This document shows positions 15,964 through 47,751 of a DNA stretch of 64,000 nucleotides, piece after piece (positions within the stretch are counted from its first letter, which is position 1; every line of letters begins with the position of its first letter). This DNA is from Verrucomicrobiota bacterium (GTDB lineage: Bacteria > Verrucomicrobiota > Verrucomicrobiia > Limisphaerales > JACRJY01), in the NCBI GenBank assembly GCA_016235585.1, contig JACRJY010000178.1:1-64000 (forward strand), read 5' to 3'. The notes under the pieces were generated by a model, which was not told where the DNA came from, ran no database searches, and saw nothing but the letters and a program-made list of their open reading frames with translations. The translations under genes and the position numbers were made by a program.

Positions 15964-16070
15964 ACCAAGGCTTAATCCAGCGACATGGCCCTACCCAAAG
16001 GAACATCGCCGCGACTTGCAACTAGTTTTTGCCGCCGGGGCCGCACGTGGGCGCCTCCGGGCTGCCCCCC

Positions 16071-16141
16071 GGAGCGCCGGACTCCGATCCCGCAGGGGTG
16101 AAAAAACTCCCGCCCCGCGCCGATGCGGAGATCGGCGTTCC
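16071..16141. repeat. Palindromic repeat, family A copy 3
   Basis: 71 bp copy in the 325 bp gap between flippase and TPR-peroxiredoxin genes, beginning ggagcgccggactccgat. It is followed by ggggcagcccggatgcgccc at about 16158-16177, the outer arm of the larger element, and by a short gcggcgt/acgccgc hairpin. The rest of the gap shows nothing recognisable apart from the likely promoter region of the rightward gene. Confidence 0.9.
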
Positions 16142-16288
16142 GCCCGGCCTGACGGAGCCGGGGCAGCCCGGATGCGCCCGAAGCGGCGTCAACGCCGCGC
16201 TCCGGCTTGCTTCGCGTGCCGAGGCCGCGTAGCGTCGCTGAATGCACCGAGAATCGCGCGAGTCAAAATTGCCGTTGCCTTTCAGCCC

Positions 16289-18583
16289 ATGAAAAAAACC
16301 ATCGTCCTCCTGCTCGCGCTCGCCTTCGCGTCCGCTGCCCGCGCCGACCATCCCGACCCCGGCCATTCCGCGCTCGGCGACGCCTTCGACGAAGGCCCGC
16401 GCCAGGCCGCCGTGCTGATGCCCGGCACCGGTGACGCGGTGAAGTTTCCCATCACCACGGCCAATCCGCTGGCGCAGAAGTTTTTCACGCAGGGCGTCGG
16501 GCAGATTCACGGCTTCTGGTTTTTCGAGGCCGAGCGCAGCTTCCGGCAGGTCGCCGCGCTCGACACGAACTGCGCCATCGCCTACTGGGGCATGGCGCTG
16601 GCGAACTTCAACAACGAGAAGCGCGCGAAGGAATTCATCAAGTCCGCCACGGCCAAACGCAGCCACGCGAGCAAACGCGAGCAGTTCTACATTGACGGCC
16701 TCGCGAAGTTTTACAGCGACGACAAGCGCGAGAAGAAGGTGCGCGAGCGCGAATTCATCCGCAGCCTTGAAGCTGTCGTGCAGGATTTCCCCGACGACAC
16801 CGAGGCGAAGGCGTTTCTCGCGCGCTACATCTGGGAATACCGGAGCAACAATCCCATCAACAGCCATCAGGCCGTGGACACGATTCTCAACGAGGTCTTC
16901 CGCGCCGAGCCGATGCACCCGGCGCATCACTTCCGCATTCACCTTTGGAACGGCGAAAAGGACGCGCGCGCCCTCGAATCCGCCGCGCGCTGCGGCCAGT
17001 CCGCGCCGGGCATCGCGCATATGTGGCACATGAGCGGCCACACCTACTCGTCGCTCAAACGCTACGGAGACGCGGCGTGGCAGCAGGAGGCCAGCGCCCG
17101 CACCGACCACGCCCACATGATGAAATACTGGGTGCTGCCGGATCAGATTCACAACTACGCCCACAACAACGAGTGGCTCATCCGCGACCTGAACCACGTC
17201 GGGCGCGTCCGCGACGCGGTGGAGCTGGCGAAAAACATGATCGAGCTGCCGCGCCACCCCAAGTGGAACACGCCGGACAAAGCGCGCGGCAGCGCCAGCT
17301 ACGGCCGCACCCGCCTGCTCGACACGCTCGTGCGCTACGAACTTTGGGATGACGTGCTGGCCTTGAACAAAACCGCCTATCTGGAACCGGCGACCAACGC
17401 CACGGCGGAAATCGCTCGCGTCCGCGCCGTCGGCCTCGCGCAGTTTCATCAAGGCGAAACCCTGACGCTCAAGGAAACGCTCGCCACGCTCGAAACCTTG
17501 GCAAAGAAGGAAACCTCCACGGGCAATCGTCGCCGCCCCGCCAACGCTTCCACCAATCAGGCGAAGGCCGCCCCGGCCAGCGCCTCGACCGGGCAAGCGT
17601 CTGGCTACGGTTCCAGCACCAACGCGCCCGCCAAGCTTGGCAGCGGCGCGGTCGCCGAAATCAAGGCGCTGCTCGCCATCGCGGAAAACGCCACCAACGC
17701 CCTCGCGCTGCTCGACGCCGCGAAGGACATTCCGAAGGATCGCCAGGCGAAATACTATTTGCGCCTCGGCGCGAACGACAAGGCCGAGCAGGCCGCGCTC
17801 GCCGCCGTGAAGGGCGCAACCAACGAAGTCCAGCCGCTCGCCGCCTGCATTGAGGTGCTCACCACGCTCGGCAAAGCTGCCGAGGCGCGCAAACGCCTCG
17901 AACAGTTGCGGAAAATCGCTGGGCACCTCGATTCGACCGCGCCGATTTATTCCCGGCTTGGCGACGTGGCGCAAAACCTCGGCCTGCCGCGCGACTGGCG
18001 GCAGCCGGCGGTGGCGTCCGCCGATGTCGGCGTGCGGCCGCCGCTGGATTCACTCGGCCCGATTCACTGGACGCCCACCAGCGCGCCGGACTGGACGCTG
18101 CCCGGCGAAAACACGGCCAAAGTTTCGCTCGCGGATTTTCGCGGCAAGCCGGTCATCGTGTTTTTCTACCTCGGCGCGGAGTGCCTGCATTGTGTCGAGC
18201 AGTTGAATGCCTTCGCGCCGCTCGCCACGGATTTCACCGAGGCGGGAATTTCCCTCGTGGCGATTGACGGCGGGCCGTTGAGCGACCTCGCCAAGACGCA
18301 CTCCAAGTGCAAGAGCGGCGACAAGTTTCCCTTCCCGCTCGCGTGCGACGAAAAGCTGGCCGTCTTCAAGCAATGGCGCTGCTTCGACGATTTCGAGGAC
18401 ATCCCGCTGCACGGCACCTTCCTCGTGGACGGCGCGGGCCGCCTGCGCTGGCTGGACATCAGCTATCAGCCGTTCATGGACGTGAAGTTCCTCCTCGCCG
18501 AAGCGAAGCGGCTGCTGAACCTGCCCGTGACCCGCGCGGCGGCGGTGGACGGCGCGAAGGCGGCACGGCGCGGCGGTGAGTGA
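16289..18583 (+). CDS. Exported TPR protein with C-terminal peroxiredoxin-like domain
   Basis: 764 residues. Signal peptide at 1-20 (MKKTIVLLLALAFASAARA). Residues about 45-450 form a helical TPR-like region with GFWFFEAERSFRQVAALD and repeated H-rich helices. A low-complexity Ala/Ser/Thr/Asn linker follows (about 408-450). The last 150 residues are a thioredoxin-fold AhpC/TSA-like domain: LADFRGKPVIVFFYLGAEC with a CLHC redox pair at Cys632/Cys635. The start is the ATG in front of the signal peptide; the frame continues upstream only through repeat DNA. The combination suggests a periplasmic redox protein, but the partner is unknown. Confidence 0.85.
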   Translation: MKKTIVLLLALAFASAARADHPDPGHSALGDAFDEGPRQAAVLMPGTGDAVKFPITTANPLAQKFFTQGVGQIHGFWFFEAERSFRQVAALDTNCAIAYWGMALANFNNEKRAKEFIKSATAKRSHASKREQFYIDGLAKFYSDDKREKKVREREFIRSLEAVVQDFPDDTEAKAFLARYIWEYRSNNPINSHQAVDTILNEVFRAEPMHPAHHFRIHLWNGEKDARALESAARCGQSAPGIAHMWHMSGHTYSSLKRYGDAAWQQEASARTDHAHMMKYWVLPDQIHNYAHNNEWLIRDLNHVGRVRDAVELAKNMIELPRHPKWNTPDKARGSASYGRTRLLDTLVRYELWDDVLALNKTAYLEPATNATAEIARVRAVGLAQFHQGETLTLKETLATLETLAKKETSTGNRRRPANASTNQAKAAPASASTGQASGYGSSTNAPAKLGSGAVAEIKALLAIAENATNALALLDAAKDIPKDRQAKYYLRLGANDKAEQAALAAVKGATNEVQPLAACIEVLTTLGKAAEARKRLEQLRKIAGHLDSTAPIYSRLGDVAQNLGLPRDWRQPAVASADVGVRPPLDSLGPIHWTPTSAPDWTLPGENTAKVSLADFRGKPVIVFFYLGAECLHCVEQLNAFAPLATDFTEAGISLVAIDGGPLSDLAKTHSKCKSGDKFPFPLACDEKLAVFKQWRCFDDFEDIPLHGTFLVDGAGRLRWLDISYQPFMDVKFLLAEAKRLLNLPVTRAAAVDGAKAARRGGE

Positions 18584-26147: not shown

Positions 26148-29100
26148 ATGAGTGACAGCCTCATCCTGCGCGAGGAATCTCCCGCCTACGACGCGGGCGG
26201 CGCGCCCGCACCGCTTGCCGATTACTTGCGCAAGCTGGAGCGCACTCTCCGACGCGGGGACGCCACCGAACACACGCACCGGCCCGCGTTGAAAGAACTG
26301 CTGGAGTCGCTGGATTCCCGCATCGTTGCCGTCAATGAACCCAAGCGTTCCGCCTGTGGCGCGCCGGATTTCGCCATCTCCCGCACGGCTGATGAGCTCT
26401 CGCTGGGTTTCATCGAAGCCAAGGACATTGGAGTTTCTCTCGACGAGGCGGCGAAGTCCGAACAGCTCAAACGCTATCGAGGCGCATTCTCCAATTTGCT
26501 GCTCACGGACTATCTCGAGTTCCGCTGGTTCGTGAACGGCGACGAGCGCGACCGCGTCCGCCTTGGCGAAGTTCGCGCCGGGAAAATTGTCCCGGCCGCC
26601 GCCGGCCTCGCCAAAGCCGCCAAGCTGCTCACGGAATTTCTCGACCGCGAACCCATCCGCCTCGACAGCGCCGAGGAACTCGCCCGCCGCCTCGCGCGGC
26701 TGACGCATCTTATCCGCGATGCCATCGTGGTCGCGTTCCAGACTGGCAACGCCTCCGAATTGCTCACGGGCTGGCGCACCGTCTTCACCGAGACGCTCCT
26801 GCCCGAACTCGCCGACGACGCGAAGGTGCCCGACTTCGCGGATATGTTCGCGCAGACGCTCGCCTACGGCCTGTTCTCCGCCCGCGCCATGAGCGGCACA
26901 AGCGCGAAGTTCACCCTCGCCGAGGCTGCCAAGCTCATCCCGCGCACCAATCCTTTTCTCCGCGACTTCTTCGACAACATCACCGGGCCGAAGCTCGACG
27001 ACGAGGCGTTTGCCGGTTACGTGCAGGATCTCGTCACGCTGCTCGAATGCGCGGACATGGCGACGATTCTGGAGGATTTCGGGCGTGGCATCGGCGCGGG
27101 GCGGCGGCGCGATCCCGTCGTGCATTTCTACGAGACCTTCCTCGCGGCCTACGACCCCAAGCTGCGCGAACTGCGTGGCGTCTATTACACCCCGGAGCCG
27201 GTCGTCTCCTACATCGTCGAGAGCATTGACTGGCTGCTGCGCGAGAAGTTCGGGCTGAAGGACGGCCTCGCCGACAAATCCAAAATCGCCTTCACTCGTG
27301 AAGAGAAGGGCAAGACCATTGATGACGAAACGCACCGCGTCCTCATCCTCGACCCCGCCACCGGCACCGGCACGTTTCTCTTCGAGGTCATCGAAACCAT
27401 CCGCGAACAGTTCGAGAAGAACCACAAGGCCGGGCAATGGCCCAGCTACGTGCATGAGCATCTGCTGCCGCGCCTCTTCGGGTTCGAGCTGCTCATGGCC
27501 CCGTATGCCGTGGCGCATTTCAAGATTGGCCTCGAATTGAGCGGGCGGCATCTGCCCGAACTTTTTCGCGCAAAGTGGGCCTACAAGTTCACCGAGAAGG
27601 AGCGCCTCAACATTTTCCTGACGAACACGCTTGAAGACATCGAACACGTCGCGCAGGTCGCCGGGCCGCTCGCCGCGTTGAGCCGGGAGGCCAACGAAGC
27701 GGTCGCCATCAAACGCCACCGCCCCGTGCTGGTCGTCCTCGGCAATCCGCCTTATGCCAACTTTGGCCGGCAGAACCGCAACGATTACATCCTCAACCTG
27801 CTCGCCGACTACAAGCGCGGCCTCAACGAGAAGAAAATCAACCTCGACGACGACTTCATCAAGTTCCTCCGCTGGGCGCATGAGCGCGTCGCCCGCACCG
27901 GGCAGGGCGTCGTCGGCTACATCACCAACAATGTTTATCTCGACGGCCTCACGCACCGCCGGATGCGCGAGAGCCTGCTGGAGAGCTTCGACGAGATTTA
28001 CATCCTCAACCTCCACGGCTCCTCCAAGAAGCAGGAGACCGCGCCCGACGGCTCCAAGGACGACAACGTCTTCGACATCACCGTGGGCGTGGCCATCGCG
28101 CTCTTCGTGAAACTGCCGCCGGGCAGCAAGGGCGCGAAGAAGGGCAAACACGCCACCGTCCATCACGCCGACCTGTGGGGTTTGCGGAAAACGAAATACG
28201 ACTGGCTCGGCAGGAACAACGCGACCTCGACGACGTGGACGAGCTTCGCGCCGGATAAACCGGAATACCGCTTCGTGCCGCGCAACGCGGAGCACGAGGA
28301 GGAGTGGAACAAGGGGTGGGGATTGCGTGACATCTTCCCGGTCAGCAACAACGGCCTGAAAACCGACCGTGACAAATTGTTCTTCGACTTCGACAGGCAG
28401 GTGCTGGAGCGTCGCATGACCACGTTCTTCGCAAGAGATTTGCCGTTAGACTTTGCCGAGACCTTCAACATCAAGGATTCAAGCAGCTACGACATCGAAA
28501 CTCGGCGCAGAGAATGCAAATGGAACGCCAAGGCGATTCGCCGTTGCCTCTACCGGCCTTTTGATTTCCGCTGGCTCTACTACGACATCGGCCTGACCAG
28601 CCGCCCGGCGGAAACAGTGATGAGGCATTTGCTCGCGGATGAAAACCTGGCGCTTTGCGCCCTTCGTCAATCCCGCCGCAGCGAGGAAGGCGCTTTCTTG
28701 GCAACCAACGCCTTGGTCAATAAGGACGTGGTGTCGCTGTTCGACATCGGCACCGTCTTCCCGCTCTACCTCTACGCCAACGGCGACCTGCCCGACGGTG
28801 ATTTGTTCGAGCACGCCAACGGACGCCGCCCGAACTTGAGCAAGGAGTTCGTCGCTGACTTGGAAACGCAGTTGGGCCTCACCTTCGTCCCCGATGGTCG
28901 CGGTAACCTGAAGAAGACATTCGGCCCGGAGGACGTCTTCCATTACGTCTACGCCATCTTCTACGCTCCAAGCTACCGCGAGCGTTACGCCGAATTCCTC
29001 AAGCTTGATTTCGCACGCGTGCCCGTTACCAGCGAGGCCAACCTCTTTCGGAGGCTGTGTGCTTGCGGCCAAAAACTCGTCGCTTCGCATACGATGCGGG

Positions 29101-29504
29101 CGGGCGACGCCACCGAAATCTCCTTCGATGTGCCGGGCGACAACATGGTCGAGCAGGTTGTGTATGTGCCGCCTATTTCGCAGGCGGTGGATGGCCACCG
29201 GCTCAGCCAGCGCAAACAGAAGCTTGCCGCACGCCGCGCGGACGGCTTGAAGCCGGGCCGTAGGGGCCGCGTTTACATCAATGCCAGTCAATTTTTTGAG
29301 GGAATCACGCCACCAGTCTGGCAGTTCCGCATCGGCGGCTACCAGGTCTGCGAGAAGTGGCTCAAGGACCGCCGAGGCCGCGCGCTCGAACACGACGACC
29401 TCGAACATTACCAGCACACCGTCAGCGCCCTCGCCGAGACGCGCCACCTCATGGCGCAAGTGGACTCCCTCATCGCCGACCACGGCGGCTGGCCGCTGGC
29501 GTAG
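26148..29504 (+). CDS. Single-polypeptide restriction-modification enzyme (type ISP-like/IIG)
   Basis: 1118 residues. N-terminal PD-(D/E)xK nuclease: Asp74 in GAPDFAI and Glu90-Ala-Lys92 in FIEAKD. The N6-adenine methyltransferase core has motif I DPATGTGTF at 402-410 and motif IV NPPY at 533-536. The C-terminal third looks like target-recognition plus the type ISP C-terminal region (AIFYAPSYRERYAEFLKLDF). No helicase motifs lie between nuclease and methylase, so it differs from LlaGI-type ISP enzymes of about 1500 residues and is closer to type IIG in layout. Expected to cut and methylate DNA with one specificity; recognition site not predictable. No separate R, M or S gene is adjacent. Confidence 0.88.
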   Translation: MSDSLILREESPAYDAGGAPAPLADYLRKLERTLRRGDATEHTHRPALKELLESLDSRIVAVNEPKRSACGAPDFAISRTADELSLGFIEAKDIGVSLDEAAKSEQLKRYRGAFSNLLLTDYLEFRWFVNGDERDRVRLGEVRAGKIVPAAAGLAKAAKLLTEFLDREPIRLDSAEELARRLARLTHLIRDAIVVAFQTGNASELLTGWRTVFTETLLPELADDAKVPDFADMFAQTLAYGLFSARAMSGTSAKFTLAEAAKLIPRTNPFLRDFFDNITGPKLDDEAFAGYVQDLVTLLECADMATILEDFGRGIGAGRRRDPVVHFYETFLAAYDPKLRELRGVYYTPEPVVSYIVESIDWLLREKFGLKDGLADKSKIAFTREEKGKTIDDETHRVLILDPATGTGTFLFEVIETIREQFEKNHKAGQWPSYVHEHLLPRLFGFELLMAPYAVAHFKIGLELSGRHLPELFRAKWAYKFTEKERLNIFLTNTLEDIEHVAQVAGPLAALSREANEAVAIKRHRPVLVVLGNPPYANFGRQNRNDYILNLLADYKRGLNEKKINLDDDFIKFLRWAHERVARTGQGVVGYITNNVYLDGLTHRRMRESLLESFDEIYILNLHGSSKKQETAPDGSKDDNVFDITVGVAIALFVKLPPGSKGAKKGKHATVHHADLWGLRKTKYDWLGRNNATSTTWTSFAPDKPEYRFVPRNAEHEEEWNKGWGLRDIFPVSNNGLKTDRDKLFFDFDRQVLERRMTTFFARDLPLDFAETFNIKDSSSYDIETRRRECKWNAKAIRRCLYRPFDFRWLYYDIGLTSRPAETVMRHLLADENLALCALRQSRRSEEGAFLATNALVNKDVVSLFDIGTVFPLYLYANGDLPDGDLFEHANGRRPNLSKEFVADLETQLGLTFVPDGRGNLKKTFGPEDVFHYVYAIFYAPSYRERYAEFLKLDFARVPVTSEANLFRRLCACGQKLVASHTMRAGDATEISFDVPGDNMVEQVVYVPPISQAVDGHRLSQRKQKLAARRADGLKPGRRGRVYINASQFFEGITPPVWQFRIGGYQVCEKWLKDRRGRALEHDDLEHYQHTVSALAETRHLMAQVDSLIADHGGWPLA

Positions 29505-37112: not shown

Positions 37113-38027
37113 ATGTCTGCGACCCGATTGATCACTCTCACCGATGCCGAGGGCGGCCTCGCCGTCGTCGCGCCCGCGCTGGGCGGCTGGCTGCTGCGCT
37201 ACGCGCGGAACCTGCCGCCGCACGGCCTCGTCGAGGCGCTGCACTTCGACCAGGCCGTGATGGACCGCCATCCGCTCGGGATGTATGCGGGCAGCCCGAT
37301 CCTCTTCCCGCTCGTGAGCAACAACCACGCGGGCGGCAAGGATCACCACTACGAGTGGAACGGAAAACTGTTCGAGATGCCGCAGCACGGCTTCGCGCGG
37401 CGCTGCCCGTGGGCGGTGGTCGCGCAAAGCGCGGACGCGGTGACGATGGAGCTGGCCGACAGCGAGGCGACGCGCGCGCAGTTTCCGTTCGCGTTCCGCC
37501 ACCGGCTGACTTACCGGCTGGCCCAGGGCCGGCTGCACTGGGAGCAGGTGGTGGAAAATCTTTCGCCGGAGCCGATGCCGTTCAGCACGGGGTTTCATCC
37601 TTATTTTCAACTGCCGCTGACGCCCAGGAGCAAGCGCGAGCTGTGCTTCGTCGAAATCCCCGAGGCGCGGCGCCTGACGCCGGTCGGCAAGAACGACCGC
37701 TTCGCCGCCACGCCGTTCCCCGGGCAGAACTGGAGCGTGCAGGAGGACATCGCCGCCACGCTGCTGCTGGGGAACTTCAAGAAGGCGGAGATGATCCTCG
37801 TGGATCCCGGCAGCGACCTGGAACTGGCGCTCAATTTCGAGGACGCGCCGCAGCACCGCTTCGCCGCGCTGTGGGCCAAGACCACCGATGCGCCGTTCTT
37901 CTGCATCGAGCCGTGGACGGCACTGCCGAACTCCTTTTCGCGTGTCAAGGATCACGAGCTGATCGTGCTGGAGCCGCAGCGCACCTTCCGCGCCGCGATG
38001 TGGATGGAACTGCGCGCGATGGCGTGA
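37113..38027 (+). CDS. Aldose 1-epimerase (galactose mutarotase) family protein
   Basis: 304 residues. Galactose-mutarotase-like beta-sandwich. SPILFPLVSNN and YEWNGKLFEMPQHGFAR give the substrate-site His/Arg pattern; STGFHPYFQLPL carries the second catalytic histidine region, and FFCIEPWTALPNSF is the conserved late block. ATG at 37113 is preferred over one at 37050 because MSATRLITLTDAEGG starts the fold. It is probably cotranscribed with aroB (78-base gap). The exact sugar is not predictable. Confidence 0.86.
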   Translation: MSATRLITLTDAEGGLAVVAPALGGWLLRYARNLPPHGLVEALHFDQAVMDRHPLGMYAGSPILFPLVSNNHAGGKDHHYEWNGKLFEMPQHGFARRCPWAVVAQSADAVTMELADSEATRAQFPFAFRHRLTYRLAQGRLHWEQVVENLSPEPMPFSTGFHPYFQLPLTPRSKRELCFVEIPEARRLTPVGKNDRFAATPFPGQNWSVQEDIAATLLLGNFKKAEMILVDPGSDLELALNFEDAPQHRFAALWAKTTDAPFFCIEPWTALPNSFSRVKDHELIVLEPQRTFRAAMWMELRAMA

Positions 38028-38200: not shown

Positions 38201-41200
38201 ATGAAAACGAAGCCGTTCCGACTCCTCCTGTCCTCCGCATTCTTTTGCCTCGCCGCGCTGGCGGCGGCGGCGGACTGGCCCACTTATTTGCACGACGGTT
38301 CGCGCGTCGGCTACACGCCCGAACCGCTCGCGGCCCCGCTGGCGCAACGCTGGACTTACGCCTCGCCCACCGCGCCGCAACAGGCCTGGGCCGGCGAGGA
38401 CGGCAAACTTTTCGAGGGCAAGGAACTGCGCAACCGCATCACGTTCGACGACGTGTTTCACACGGCGATTGCCGGCGGGCGCGTCTTCTTCGGCTCGTCG
38501 GTGGATGGCCGGGTGTATTGCCGGAATCTCGCGACGGGAAAAGAGGAATGGAATTTTTTCACTGACGGCCCGATCCGGCTCGCGCCGATGGTGGCGGGCG
38601 GAAAACTGTTCGTCGGCTCGGACGACGGCCACGTCTATTGCCTCGATGCGGCCACGGGCAAGGTGATTTGGAAACTCCGCGCCGGGCCGAACGACGAGCG
38701 CATCCTCGCGCGCGGGCGGATGATTTCGCGCTGGCCGGTGCGCACCGGCGTGCTGGTGGACGGCGGCACCGCGTATTTCGGCGCGGGCGTGTTCCCGCAC
38801 GAAAACATTTGTCTCTACGCGGTCGAGGCCGCGACGGGGAAGGTAATCTGGAAGAACGACGCCATCAGCCAGACCGACGCGGGCCGCGATGATCTCTCGC
38901 CGCAGGGCTACCTGCTCGCGACGAAGGACATTTTGTTCGTGCCGTCGGGCCGTTCGCTCGCCGCGTCGTTCCAGCGCGCGACCGGCGAATTTCTCAACAA
39001 GCCCGCGCCCGGCTGGCGCACGGACGCCGGCGGGCAGATCGGCGGCACGCAGGCGCTGCTGGCGGACGATCAGATTTATGCGGTCGGCGAGCATCACATC
39101 CTCGCGATGGATCAGGAGAAGGGCAAGGTGGGCTTCGGCTGGTTTGCGGGCCGGCAGATGACGCTGGCGGGCGACATGGGCTATCTCGCCAGCGGGAAGG
39201 AGATCGTCGCGATTGACCGCGTGCGCCATGCCGAGGGCACGCGCGAGCGGCACAAGGTGGAACTGGCCATTTCCAAATTGAACTCGGATATGCGAAAGCA
39301 CCCGGCCCTCGCCGAATTGAAGAAGGTGGAAAAGGCACAGGCGGACTTGAAGGAGGCGCAGCAGCAGCTCAAGCAACTGGAAGCCGCCGGCAAAAAATCT
39401 TCGCCCGAATTTCAGGCCGCCGATGCTGCCGCGAAGAAAAGCGAGAGGGCGCTCGCCTCGGCAGCGGAACGCTACGAGCCCAGGCGCGTGGATTACCAGA
39501 CGAAGAAGGACAAGCTCGCGTCGCTGAACAAGGAACTCGCCGCCTATTCCGATGTCGGCATCAAGTGGCGGTTCCCCGCGCTGCACGATTCGGCGCTGAT
39601 TCTCGCCGGGAATACCCTGGTGGCCGGCGGCAAGGGCGAGGTCGTCTGCCTCGACGCGGATTCCGGCAAGCTGCTCTGGAAATCCGCCGTCGAAGGCGAG
39701 GCGCGCGGATTGGCGGCGGCCAGCGGCCATCTGGTCGTCAGCACCACGCAGGGGAAAATTTATTCGTTCGCCGATGCGGGCCAGAAATCGCCGCCGCCGG
39801 TCGTTGCCGAGTCGAAATCCCAAGCTGACCCATTCCCGAAAGACGCGCTTTCCTCTCTTTACGCCGCCGCCGCCGAGGCGATTCTCAAACAGACCAGCAC
39901 CAAGCGCGGCTTCTGCCTCGTCGTCGGGAGCGAGCAGGGCCGCTTGGCCTACGAACTGGCGAAGCGCACCGAGCTGACGATTTATTGCGTCGAAGCCGAC
40001 GAGCGCAAGGTGCAGTCGTCGCGCGCGGCGCTCGTCAAGACCGGCCTCTACGGCCCGCGCCTCACGGTGGATCACCTCGACCTGTCGGTGATTCCCTACG
40101 CCAGCTATTTCGCCAACCTCATCGTGTCGGACAGCCTGCTGTTGACCGGCGAAATGCCGGGCATCCCGGCGGAAGTCGCGCGCAACCTCAAGCCCATTGG
40201 CGGAATGATCTGCCTGGGCGTTCCCGACACCGCGCCGGACGCGGTGAAAACCAGGGCGAAGGCGGCGGTTTCCAAATGGCTCGCGGACACCAAGCTCACG
40301 GAGGAAAACGCGAAGATTGAAAGCGCGGGAAACTGGTCACGCCTCGTGCGCGCCGCGCTGCCGAACGCCGGCTCATGGTCGCACCAATACGGCAACGCCG
40401 CCAACACTTCCAGCAACGACGACGGTCGCATCAAGGGCGGTCTGGGCGTGCTCTGGTATGGCGATCCCGGCCCCGGCAAAATGGTCAACCGCCACGCCGG
40501 CGCGGTCGGGCCGCTCTCGGTGAATGGCCGCCTCTTCATCCAAGGCGACGAGTCGGTGATGGCCTACGATGCCTACAACGGTCAATTTTTGTGGGAGGTG
40601 GAAAATCCCGGTGCGCTCCGCACCGGCCTCAAGGGCGCGCATGAGCCGGGCAACATGGCGGCGAGCGACGACAGCCTGTTCGTGGTCGTCGGGGCGGAAT
40701 GCCTGCACTTCGACGCCGCGACGGGAAAAATTCTCCGCACCTACGCCATTCCCGAATCGTCGGCTGACAGCGGCCGCGAGTGGGGCTACCTCGCCTGGAA
40801 AGACGGCCTGCTCTATGGCACCGTCACCGCCCGCAAACAGGCCGCCGCCGAACAGCAGCGCCGGGGCAAGGCCGCCGGCCCGGCGACGGACAGTATTTTC
40901 GCCTTCGACACGGCCACGGGAAAACTGGCGTGGGCGCACCAGGGCAAGAGCATTTCGCACGTCTCCATCGCCATCGGCGACGGGCGCGTGTTCTTCGTGG
41001 ACAGCTCGCTCACGCCGGAGCAGCGCGAGGAACTGCTGCGTCAGGACAAGACTGATTTGAAAAAACTGACCGGCGAAGCACGCGACCTCGCCGAGGAGCG
41101 CATCAAAACGGCCGACCTGCGGCTCGCCGTGGCGCTGGACGCGCGCACCGGACAGAAGCTGTGGGGCAAGCCGGTGGACGTGACGGATTGCAGCGAGGTC

Positions 41201-42364
41201 GGCATCGGCGGCGGGAGCCTGACGCTGATTTATCACAACAACCACATCGTCCTCGGCGGCGCGAACGCGAACGGCCACTACTGGACGCAGTTCCTCGAAG
41301 GCGAGTTCAAGCGCCGCCGGCTGGTGGTGCTGGATGCCGGCTCCGGCACGAAACTCTGGGCCAAGGACGCGAACTACCGTCACCGGCCCATCGTGATTGA
41401 CAATGAAATCATCGCCGAGCCGTGGGGCTACGACCTCTACACCGGCGCGCAGAAGATGCGGACGCACCCGCTGACCGGCGAGCAGACGCCGTGGATGTTC
41501 GCGCGGCCCGGCCACCACTGCGGCGCGATTTCCGCGACGCGCAACATGATGTTCTTCCGCTCCAAGTCCACGGCCTTTTACAACCTTGACCAGGACGAGG
41601 GCACGGAACACTTCGCCGGGCAGCGGCTCGGCTGCTGGATCAACACCATTCCCGCCAACGGCCTGGTGATGATTCCCGAAGCCAGCGCTGGCTGCGTCTG
41701 CCTCTTCTCCATCGCCGCGACGATTGTTTTCGAGCCGCGCGAGAACCGCATGAACTGGGGCGTCTACAGCGCCAGCGGCATGAGCACGCCGGTGCAGCAC
41801 ATGGCGCTGAACCTCGGCGCGCCCGGCGACCGGCGCGACGCGCACGGGAAATTGTGGCTCGGCTATCCGCGGCCCTCATCGCGCGCGGGGATTGATCTGC
41901 CGCTTTCGCTCAAGCCGGTGTTCGCCACGGGCGGTGATTATTTTGTCTTCAACGAAGCCTCGTTCCCGGTGGCGAACACCGACACGCCGTGGGTCTTCTC
42001 CTCCGGCGCGCGCGGTCTGACTCGCTGCGAACTGCCGCTGCTCGGCAAGGGGCAGAAGGCGGAGACCTACACCGTGCGCCTCTACTTCACCGCGCTCGAA
42101 AACGACCAGCCCGGCCAGCGCGTGTTCGACATCCAGCTTCAGGGCAGGACGGTGAAGAAGGGCTTCGACCTCGTGGCGCAGGCGGGCGGGGCGATGAAGG
42201 CGTTCATGGCCGAGTTCCACGGAATCCCGGTTTCGGAAAACCTCGTGGTGGAACTCGTCCCGGCCCAGGCCGGCGCGGACGCCGCGCACCAACCGCTGGT
42301 GAGCGGCATCGAAGTGCTGCGGACGAACGCGAAGGAAATCACCGACCGCGTCGCCACGCGGTGA
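38201..42364 (+). CDS. Giant exported PQQ-type beta-propeller protein with methyltransferase-like and malectin-like domains
   Basis: 1387 residues. Signal peptide MKTKPFRLLLSSAFFCLAAL, then PQQ-type propeller blades (NLATGKEEWNFFTDGPIRLA, CLDAATGKVIWKLRAGPNDE). Residues about 370-450 form a charged coiled coil between blades. Residues about 565-675 are Rossmann methyltransferase-like: FCLVVGSEQGRLAYELAKR, then VEADERKVQSSRAAL and LKPIGGMICLG. A second propeller follows (about 700-1130) and the C-terminal 100 residues look malectin-like (TYTVRLYFTALEND). No CxxCH heme motif is present. Such propeller fusions occur in Planctomycetes and Verrucomicrobia, but function is unknown. Long frame upstream of the ATG at 38201 is antisense to other genes and ignored. 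Confidence 0.86.
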   Translation: MKTKPFRLLLSSAFFCLAALAAAADWPTYLHDGSRVGYTPEPLAAPLAQRWTYASPTAPQQAWAGEDGKLFEGKELRNRITFDDVFHTAIAGGRVFFGSSVDGRVYCRNLATGKEEWNFFTDGPIRLAPMVAGGKLFVGSDDGHVYCLDAATGKVIWKLRAGPNDERILARGRMISRWPVRTGVLVDGGTAYFGAGVFPHENICLYAVEAATGKVIWKNDAISQTDAGRDDLSPQGYLLATKDILFVPSGRSLAASFQRATGEFLNKPAPGWRTDAGGQIGGTQALLADDQIYAVGEHHILAMDQEKGKVGFGWFAGRQMTLAGDMGYLASGKEIVAIDRVRHAEGTRERHKVELAISKLNSDMRKHPALAELKKVEKAQADLKEAQQQLKQLEAAGKKSSPEFQAADAAAKKSERALASAAERYEPRRVDYQTKKDKLASLNKELAAYSDVGIKWRFPALHDSALILAGNTLVAGGKGEVVCLDADSGKLLWKSAVEGEARGLAAASGHLVVSTTQGKIYSFADAGQKSPPPVVAESKSQADPFPKDALSSLYAAAAEAILKQTSTKRGFCLVVGSEQGRLAYELAKRTELTIYCVEADERKVQSSRAALVKTGLYGPRLTVDHLDLSVIPYASYFANLIVSDSLLLTGEMPGIPAEVARNLKPIGGMICLGVPDTAPDAVKTRAKAAVSKWLADTKLTEENAKIESAGNWSRLVRAALPNAGSWSHQYGNAANTSSNDDGRIKGGLGVLWYGDPGPGKMVNRHAGAVGPLSVNGRLFIQGDESVMAYDAYNGQFLWEVENPGALRTGLKGAHEPGNMAASDDSLFVVVGAECLHFDAATGKILRTYAIPESSADSGREWGYLAWKDGLLYGTVTARKQAAAEQQRRGKAAGPATDSIFAFDTATGKLAWAHQGKSISHVSIAIGDGRVFFVDSSLTPEQREELLRQDKTDLKKLTGEARDLAEERIKTADLRLAVALDARTGQKLWGKPVDVTDCSEVGIGGGSLTLIYHNNHIVLGGANANGHYWTQFLEGEFKRRRLVVLDAGSGTKLWAKDANYRHRPIVIDNEIIAEPWGYDLYTGAQKMRTHPLTGEQTPWMFARPGHHCGAISATRNMMFFRSKSTAFYNLDQDEGTEHFAGQRLGCWINTIPANGLVMIPEASAGCVCLFSIAATIVFEPRENRMNWGVYSASGMSTPVQHMALNLGAPGDRRDAHGKLWLGYPRPSSRAGIDLPLSLKPVFATGGDYFVFNEASFPVANTDTPWVFSSGARGLTRCELPLLGKGQKAETYTVRLYFTALENDQPGQRVFDIQLQGRTVKKGFDLVAQAGGAMKAFMAEFHGIPVSENLVVELVPAQAGADAAHQPLVSGIEVLRTNAKEITDRVATR

Positions 42365-45783: not shown

Positions 45784-45964
45784 AGCCGGAACCATGCAGT
45801 GGAGTTGAATGGGGAGCGCGTGGCGTCTCGCCCGCGGTTTTCGGCGTCTCGCCGAAAACTTCCCCGCCCGCCGGACGCTCGGTTTGGTCTGCGGCCCCAA
45901 ACCCGTCGGCGGGACGCCGACGGGTGCGACCGGGACGGTCGCGCTCCCCGCTTCAACTGTCAGG
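45784..45964. repeat. Repeat family D, copy 1
   Basis: About 181 bp. It opens agccggaaccatgcagtgga, carries ggggagcgcgtggcgtctcg and acccgtcggcgggacgccga, and ends gctccccgcttcaactgt. The same element occurs in the opposite orientation at 52958. It contains several internal hairpins and takes up most of the 334 bp gap before the Ig-repeat gene. Confidence 0.9.
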
Positions 45965-46068
45965 ATGCGCCGTGGCTTTTCCTCGCCGGTTTTCGGCTTG
46001 TTTTTCGCTGGACTCCGGGCCAGAGTGCGCACGATTCAGGAACAGGTGTTGTGAACTCAAGACTTCCA

Positions 46069-47751
46069 ATGACCAGGCGGCTCAAATCGCTCCCGTGGCT
46101 GGCGCTGCTGCTGGTGTCATTGTCTTTCGCATTCCGGGGCGTCGCGCAGAGTAACATCGTCTTCAACCCCAGCTTCGAGATTGATTTCCCTCACATTTTT
46201 GAAGGCTGGAGCGCCGCCTATCTCGGCGGAGCCGTCAACGAGCCCGGGGCCGCCGAGGGCGGTGCCTGGGTCGGTATCGGCAACGGCAGCGGTGGAGTGC
46301 GTGCCACCTATCCCAATTATCTGCTCTTTCAGGATTTGAAGACCGTGCCGGGGCGCGTCTATGACCTGCGCTTTGCCACGCGTGGCAACCTGCAAGGGCT
46401 GAAGGTTCTCTTCGGGGACACGGTGGCGGGCACGATTGACATCGGCGGCTCGACCGGCTTCTGGTTTTACACGAACTACACGGTCACCGCGACCAGCACG
46501 AACACGCGCCTGGCTTTTGACAACTCCGGCGGCAGCAATTATGCGGACGTGGACGCGGTGAGCGTACGCTGGGTGGCGGAGCCAGCGGGCATCATCAAGC
46601 CGGTGGTGAGCCGCAGCGCGTATGAGGGGGCGACGGTGGGTTTCGCAGTGAAGGGTCAGGGCGTGCCGCCGTTGAGCTATCAATGGCATCGCGACGGTCA
46701 GCCGATGGCTGGACAGATGGGGAATGCGCTCACGCTGACGAATATCACCTTGGCTGACAATGGCCGGTATTACGTGGTGGTCAGCAATGCGTTTGGAGCG
46801 GCACAGAGTCTGGATGCGATTCTGGCAGTCACACCGTTGCCGCAAACCCCATTGATAACGACGCAGCCTAAAAGCTTGTCCGTATTTTCTGGCTACGAAC
46901 CAACACTTGATGTGTCGGTCGTGGGCCAAGGGTCGTTGACCTACCAATGGCAGTTTAATGGCAGCAACATTGCCGGGGCCACCAACAACAAACTGCTCAT
47001 GCCCTCGGCAAGTGAAACCAATAGCGGCCTATACACAGTTGTAATCAGCAATCCCAATGGCGTCACGGTAAGCTTGCCCGCCAGCTTGAACATCAATCCA
47101 TCTCCCTCGGGAACTTTTATTGACATTCGAAACGAAGGGACACCCGTATTCGATGTGGATGGAGTGACGAGGCTCGCTGGAACCAATTATTTGGCCCGGC
47201 TCTATGGAGGTGTGAATTCGAATTCACTTCATGCTTTTGGGTCAACTTCAGTTTTCTACACCGACGGCTACGGTCTTCAGGCTGGCGTGTTCGAAAGTTT
47301 GGCAGGACTGGTCCCCGACACAGCGACTGTCGGACAAAACTTGTATGTGCAGGTGCGTGTGTGGGAGCGGGCAAGCGGGGAAGATTATGAGGAAGCCCGA
47401 TTGCGTGGGGGTAAAATCGGGAAGTCTGATCTCTTTCGCATTCAGGCTAGGAGTTATCCTCCCTTTCCGAGCTTCAGGAATTTAACCAACAGCTTCAGTC
47501 TGGAAGCTGGCTCACCGTTATATGCCAGCGCGAAACTTGATCCTGGACAAGTGACACCGGAAGGTGGAGTCGAATTGCTGGTCACCGGCGAAGTGGGCAC
47601 GCGGTATCTGATCGAATACAGCCCGCTTTCCCCGCCTTCGTGGATGCCCTTGATGGTCGTGACCAACCAGACCGGCACAGTCTCCTTTGTGGACGCAAAC
47701 GCCGCCACAAATTCCGCCCGCATCTACCGCGCACAGATTTTGAGCGACTGA
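46069..47751 (+). CDS. Secreted protein with two Ig-like domains
   Basis: 560 residues. Signal peptide (LKSLPWLALLLVSLSFAF), an N-terminal DUF642-like carbohydrate-binding-type beta sandwich (NIVFNPSFEIDFPHIFEGWS), and two immunoglobulin-like domains at about 185-270 and 275-350. The Ig signature is clear twice: YQWHRDGQPMAGQMGNALTL and LADNGRYYVVVSNAFG; then YQWQFNGSNIAGATNN and SGLYTVVISNPNG. The C-terminal 200 residues are unassigned and coded by DNA of visibly lower GC. ATG at 46069; a GTG at 46051 is the alternative. Likely an adhesive surface or secreted protein. Confidence 0.84.
   Translation: MTRRLKSLPWLALLLVSLSFAFRGVAQSNIVFNPSFEIDFPHIFEGWSAAYLGGAVNEPGAAEGGAWVGIGNGSGGVRATYPNYLLFQDLKTVPGRVYDLRFATRGNLQGLKVLFGDTVAGTIDIGGSTGFWFYTNYTVTATSTNTRLAFDNSGGSNYADVDAVSVRWVAEPAGIIKPVVSRSAYEGATVGFAVKGQGVPPLSYQWHRDGQPMAGQMGNALTLTNITLADNGRYYVVVSNAFGAAQSLDAILAVTPLPQTPLITTQPKSLSVFSGYEPTLDVSVVGQGSLTYQWQFNGSNIAGATNNKLLMPSASETNSGLYTVVISNPNGVTVSLPASLNINPSPSGTFIDIRNEGTPVFDVDGVTRLAGTNYLARLYGGVNSNSLHAFGSTSVFYTDGYGLQAGVFESLAGLVPDTATVGQNLYVQVRVWERASGEDYEEARLRGGKIGKSDLFRIQARSYPPFPSFRNLTNSFSLEAGSPLYASAKLDPGQVTPEGGVELLVTGEVGTRYLIEYSPLSPPSWMPLMVVTNQTGTVSFVDANAATNSARIYRAQILSD

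Follow-up and report, generated by a model that had tools for sequence, protein, structure and literature searches.

We analyzed a 64,000-nucleotide stretch of DNA from a Verrucomicrobiota genome (the window) and focused on one long gene within it. The open reading frame has no internal stop and its translation gives 1387 residues (Table 1). A longer alternative frame begins with a GTG at 37355 and overlaps the upstream aldose epimerase gene; starting from the ATG at 38201 yields a signal peptide and an N-terminus homologous to those of relatives, which reads MKTKPFRLLLSSAFFCLAALAAAA followed by DWPTY. The nearest genes include aroB, aldose epimerase and thiE. Elsewhere, the forward strand of the window encodes a Type ISP restriction-modification-like protein (26148-29504; PF18135, N6_Mtase), an 855-residue protein with an AhpC/TSA peroxiredoxin-type domain at its C-terminus (16016-18583) and a 650-residue protein with immunoglobulin-type domains (45799-47751).

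Table 1. Features of the gene and of its predicted product, in window positions.
Feature	Position	Strand	Evidence
Gene for a 1387-residue exported protein (propeller, methyltransferase fold, propeller, malectin-like end)	38201..42364	+	Open frame, translation, 534 confirmed relatives
Signal peptide, residues 1-24	38201..38272	+	Sequence, ortholog N-termini
Propeller A, first part, residues 25-340	38273..39220	+	Pfam PQQ_2, ortholog conservation
Coiled-coil insertion, residues ~345-450	39233..39550	+	Weak SMC-like match, low conservation
Propeller A, last part, residues ~455-520	39563..39760	+	Propeller-type sequence, conservation
Predicted class I methyltransferase-fold domain, residues ~549-717	39845..40351	+	Profile 3dlc, AlphaFold, Foldseek
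Degenerate motif I (CLVVGSEQGRL), residues 572-582	39914..39946	+	Alignment, counts
Propeller B, residues 722-1200	40364..41800	+	Family profiles; quinoprotein ADH and BamB matches
Conserved Cys set of propeller B (C1107, C1145, C1165-x-C1167)	41519..41701	+	Ortholog alignment
Malectin-like C-terminal domain, residues ~1215-1378	41843..42334	+	Pfam PF11721, E 8.5e-10

A first-pass annotation had described an exported protein with PQQ-type propellers, a coiled coil, a methyltransferase-like core and a malectin-like end. A signal peptide is indeed present, and a signal-like hydrophobic stretch precedes the propeller in all 72 orthologs with readable N-termini. The propeller repeats and the malectin-like end also held, with Pfam PQQ_2 matching four stretches of the protein (E 1e-41) and PF11721 scoring 39.3 bits against a gathering score of 23. 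The coiled coil fared less well, as the segment gives a weak SMC-like match and is poorly conserved among orthologs. Both propellers have repeat sequences like those of the PQQ_2, quinoprotein ADH and BamB propellers, from which the window protein differs by the addition of a methyltransferase-fold (MT) domain and of four conserved cysteines, including a CxC, in propeller B. Membership of the quinoprotein dehydrogenases was rejected (TIGR03075, 52.8 bits vs a cut-off of 480; TIGR03074, 26.8 vs 832), as was membership of the BamB family (TIGR03300, 82 bits vs 285). The propeller B cysteines are retained in every ortholog counted (C1107 in 81/81, C1145 in 80/80, C1165 and C1167 each in 79/79), and C1107 is also Cys in 14 of 14 diverse full-length rows representing both domain orders.

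Pfam, searched with the whole 1387-residue protein, missed the MT domain, and the isolated domain matched Methyltransf_11 below the cut-off (E 0.005). Among 27 homologs, 14 matched Methyltransf_25 and 11 matched Methyltransf_11. The profile built from these 27 sequences found methyltransferases in the PDB (best match 3dlc, E 6.4e-15); this first alignment (A1) was too divergent for a genome-wide pattern scan. An AlphaFold2 model built from 60 aligned sequences (pLDDT 94.4, pTM 0.90) consists of a helix and a beta-alpha series that ends in a beta hairpin, and class I methyltransferases are expected to show such a series with a terminal hairpin. All of the top 50 Foldseek matches in the PDB were class I methyltransferase folds, with 3dlc again the best (E 7.5e-13). 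Fold prediction and fold search had been set beforehand as the check between a methyltransferase and further propeller blades, and together they rule out the blades. Chance resemblance or a frame artefact is ruled out by the conservation of the family and by purifying selection. The profile, the model and the fold search identify residues ~549-717 as a genuine class I SAM-methyltransferase fold, and the proposal that a Rossmann methyltransferase domain sits between the two propellers of a protein exported by Sec is borne out by Pfam, the profile, AlphaFold and Foldseek; the extent first given, residues 565-675, was too short. Class I methyltransferases such as 3dlc (MMP1179) and Methyltransf_11/25 share the fold and align over nearly the full length, whereas the domain of the window family is exported, is fused to propellers and has lost the acid of motif I, in most cases together with the middle glycine.

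A scan of genome contigs confirmed 534 relatives. The phyletic spread of the architecture, which the first-pass annotation had proposed checking, covers two phyla among the best 80 of the 534 relatives: all are from Planctomycetota or Verrucomicrobiota, with identities of up to 78%. In a first scan the MT domain was found in 14 of 195 Verrucomicrobiota genomes. Using the profile, we found it within a long frame in 35 of 388 Verrucomicrobiota genomes, where positives were chosen at E ≤ about 1e-12 plus a long frame and the doubtful genome G226 was left out, and in 31 of 149 Planctomycetota genomes. The Verrucomicrobiota positives span 26 families. Single genomes can carry very many paralogs (13 matches in G114 and 21 in G538). 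We found no description of the propeller/MT-fold architecture in the titles and abstracts of a mostly open-access literature.

The family occurs in two domain orders. Of 147 typed members, 121 have the order propA-MT-propB (type I) and 26 have MT-propB-propA (type II). A quick tree separates the type II rows from all others by one branch (support 100), so a single permutation event is probable. In both orders the MT domain immediately precedes propeller B wherever profiles call propeller B, which in some type II members is too diverged for its profile.

An exported domain would not be expected to meet SAM, which is a cytoplasmic cofactor. Motif I of the window protein contains VVGSEQGRL, as first described. 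The segment LVVGSEQG does not fit the pattern hh(D/E)hGxGxG, and Glu occupies the place of the middle glycine. In an alignment of 81 orthologs, position 574 is V or I in every row, and most rows carry E or D at position 578; Glu or Asp usually replaces the middle glycine throughout the window clade. The motif I acid (position 574) is kept in three of the 147 typed members and absent in the other 144, all three glycines are kept in 31, and only two members combine the acid, the three glycines and the acid of strand beta-2. The beta-2 acid, which is the usual ribose-binding position in SAM- or nucleotide-binding Rossmann folds, is present at the strand end in the window protein (E598) and is E/D in 109 of 121 type I and 13 of 26 type II members. 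G570, R608, P665 and G667 are invariant or nearly so across the two phyla (R608 is kept in 141/147 typed members), and type I members also conserve a polar set of R620, N639, D644 and K664. Judged by dN/dS values of 0.055-0.24 in 11 ortholog pairs, which are near those of the propellers, the MT domain is still under purifying selection. The domain is therefore under constraint, though what is preserved is not a normal SAM loop, and we infer that it does not bind SAM. The earlier suggestion that it had switched to a binding or structural module thus gains indirect support from three features of the sequences: 144 of 147 members lack the motif I acid, the middle glycine is usually Glu or Asp in the window clade, and the domain nevertheless remains under selection.

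The conserved beta-2 acid and the GxGxG of 31 of the 147 members make ligand binding by some members possible. One alternative is that the changed Rossmann pocket binds another nucleotide-like or acidic ligand, the propeller protein acting as a sensor or carrier. The beta-2 acid and the strongly conserved R608 beside the remodelled loop fit such a pocket, as does the type I polar set, but no ligand is indicated and the conserved polar residues could equally well face propeller B; we regard this alternative as unlikely, although it is the best placed of the rivals. An active methyltransferase is more doubtful still. It would require SAM to reach the periplasm or cell surface by release or transport, or methylation to take place before export. 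The class I fold is complete and under purifying selection, most type I members retain the beta-2 acid, and a minority have GxGxG, with the whole canonical set in two. Against activity, the motif I acid is almost always missing, most of the window clade has Glu or Asp for the middle glycine, the Sec-type signal peptide implies export in an unfolded state, and we recognized no SAM transporter or methyltransferase partner in the gene neighborhoods examined.

We identified a second family, F1, whose genes accompany those of the MT-propeller proteins. F1 genes have about 320-450 codons, and their sequences had no match in the PDB, Pfam or NCBIfam. The protein has a Cys at its mature N-terminus (CSVPVFRYALE), a CxC downstream and a C-terminal transmembrane-like helix. 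A model (pLDDT 87.9) shows beta-alpha-beta-alpha-beta-beta-alpha elements; the nearest folds are the PDI bb' domains and calsequestrin, with low TM values and a best Foldseek E of 0.003 that is not significant. F1 may consist of thioredoxin-like domains, but the likeness is weak.

In 29 of about 80 loci, F1 adjoins the MT-propeller gene or is only a very short distance away, in divergent or co-directional orientation. In Verrucomicrobiota it is present in 34 of 35 MT-propeller-positive genomes vs 10 of 353 others (343 have neither gene and one has the MT-propeller gene only). In Planctomycetota the corresponding figures are 26 of 31 vs 0 of 118, with five genomes having the MT-propeller gene only, none F1 only and 118 neither. 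Discordant genomes thus comprise 10 Verrucomicrobiota with F1 and no detected MT-propeller gene and six genomes, from both phyla, with the reverse. Fisher values are 1e-38 for Verrucomicrobiota and 2e-24 for Planctomycetota, although these overstate certainty because related genomes are not independent. In the planctomycete G388, three F1 genes each lie <5 kb from an MT-propeller gene; two of the three F1 matches (G388:C1:5223356-5224345 and 3452836-3453873) contain one internal TAA each.

Genes associated with F1 encode an FtsX/MacB_PCD permease, an ABC ATPase and a ModA-like SBP. One genome (G110, locus L154) has a compact run on one strand of F1, FtsX permease, ATPase, MT-propeller gene, two SBP-like genes, permease and ATPase. 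Two others (G023 and G190) have a run of ThiF, F1, FtsX, ATPase, ModA-like SBP, permease, ATPase and a ThiS-like gene; this stretch is without an MT-propeller gene, which both genomes carry elsewhere. MacB/LolCDE-type and ModABC-type ABC systems comprise the same kinds of gene (permease, ATPase, ModA-like SBP), and differ in that here F1 and the MT-propeller protein accompany the ABC genes. Genes of the ThiF family also occur near F1 or the MT-propeller gene at L158, L159, L166, L125 and L094, those of the ThiS family at L158 and L125, and a small 4Fe-4S ferredoxin gene at L163. A tungsten AOR system, considered because of these ThiF, ThiS, ferredoxin and ModA-like neighbors, was ruled out because AOR does not co-occur: among Planctomycetota, the control gene (AFOR_C) is in 8 of 31 genomes with the MT-propeller gene and in 32 of the 118 without it.

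The first-pass annotation saw no adjacent heme or PQQ partner gene. That the window gene has no partner beside it is true, F1 not adjoining it in its own genome, but the picture is incomplete: relatives have F1 as a conserved adjoining partner, and the window genome carries two F1 genes elsewhere. One follows a type II paralog that is split between contigs C96 (25855-27995) and C88 (1-4594), the two pieces aligning to a relative (L054) at 68-771 and 755-1382; on C88 the paralog piece is followed by F1 and then by a ModA-like SBP. With the broken paralog, F1 and the ModA-like protein, this genome holds a second set. The other F1 gene, on contig C56, is 60% identical to the F1 adjoining the ortholog of the window gene (L058).

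That the MT domain is structural filler with no binding role, the F1 linkage reflecting the propellers only, is the least credible explanation: mean column identity is lower in the domain (0.59) than in the propeller parts (0.73 and 0.69), but individual residues are near-invariant across two phyla and the domain stayed beside propeller B through the permutation, even if members gathered partly through MT matches leave losses of the domain under-counted.

We favor, with moderate confidence, the explanation that the exported MT domain serves in binding or docking, without catalysis, as part of an undescribed envelope system of Planctomycetota and Verrucomicrobiota that includes F1. The domain would have its origin in a cytoplasmic class I SAM-dependent methyltransferase, whose fold it has kept. 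With a degenerate SAM-binding loop and SAM unexpected outside the cytoplasm, it most likely no longer methylates, and it was probably retained as a rigid module for binding or docking, joined to propeller B at the N-terminal edge of that propeller. A fold kept in a non-catalytic role is known from pseudo-methyltransferases such as METTL14; proteins of that type act in the cytoplasm or nucleus, whereas the domain described here is exported and fused to propellers.

The propeller protein probably acts together with a membrane-anchored F1, to which the system in many genomes would add the FtsX/MacB-type ABC pair and a ModABC-like uptake system. More tentatively, and at somewhat less than even chances, all of these may form one undescribed PVC envelope machine in which the former methyltransferase domain binds a partner or a ligand other than SAM. 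In a plausible cycle, the ABC pair would drive F1 and the propeller protein; the conserved Cys/CxC sites of F1 and of propeller B would handle a metal ion or a disulfide, which might be transferred to or from the binding protein.

Because their cofactor is intracellular, methyltransferase folds are assumed to be so too. In this family, spread over two phyla, such a fold is exported in abundance, with as many as 21 copies in a single genome, and has apparently been kept for another use. The family would illustrate how the re-use of a cytoplasmic enzyme fold outside the cytoplasm can look, and the strong phyletic partner, the unnamed family F1, makes an uncharacterized PVC envelope system nameable and testable.
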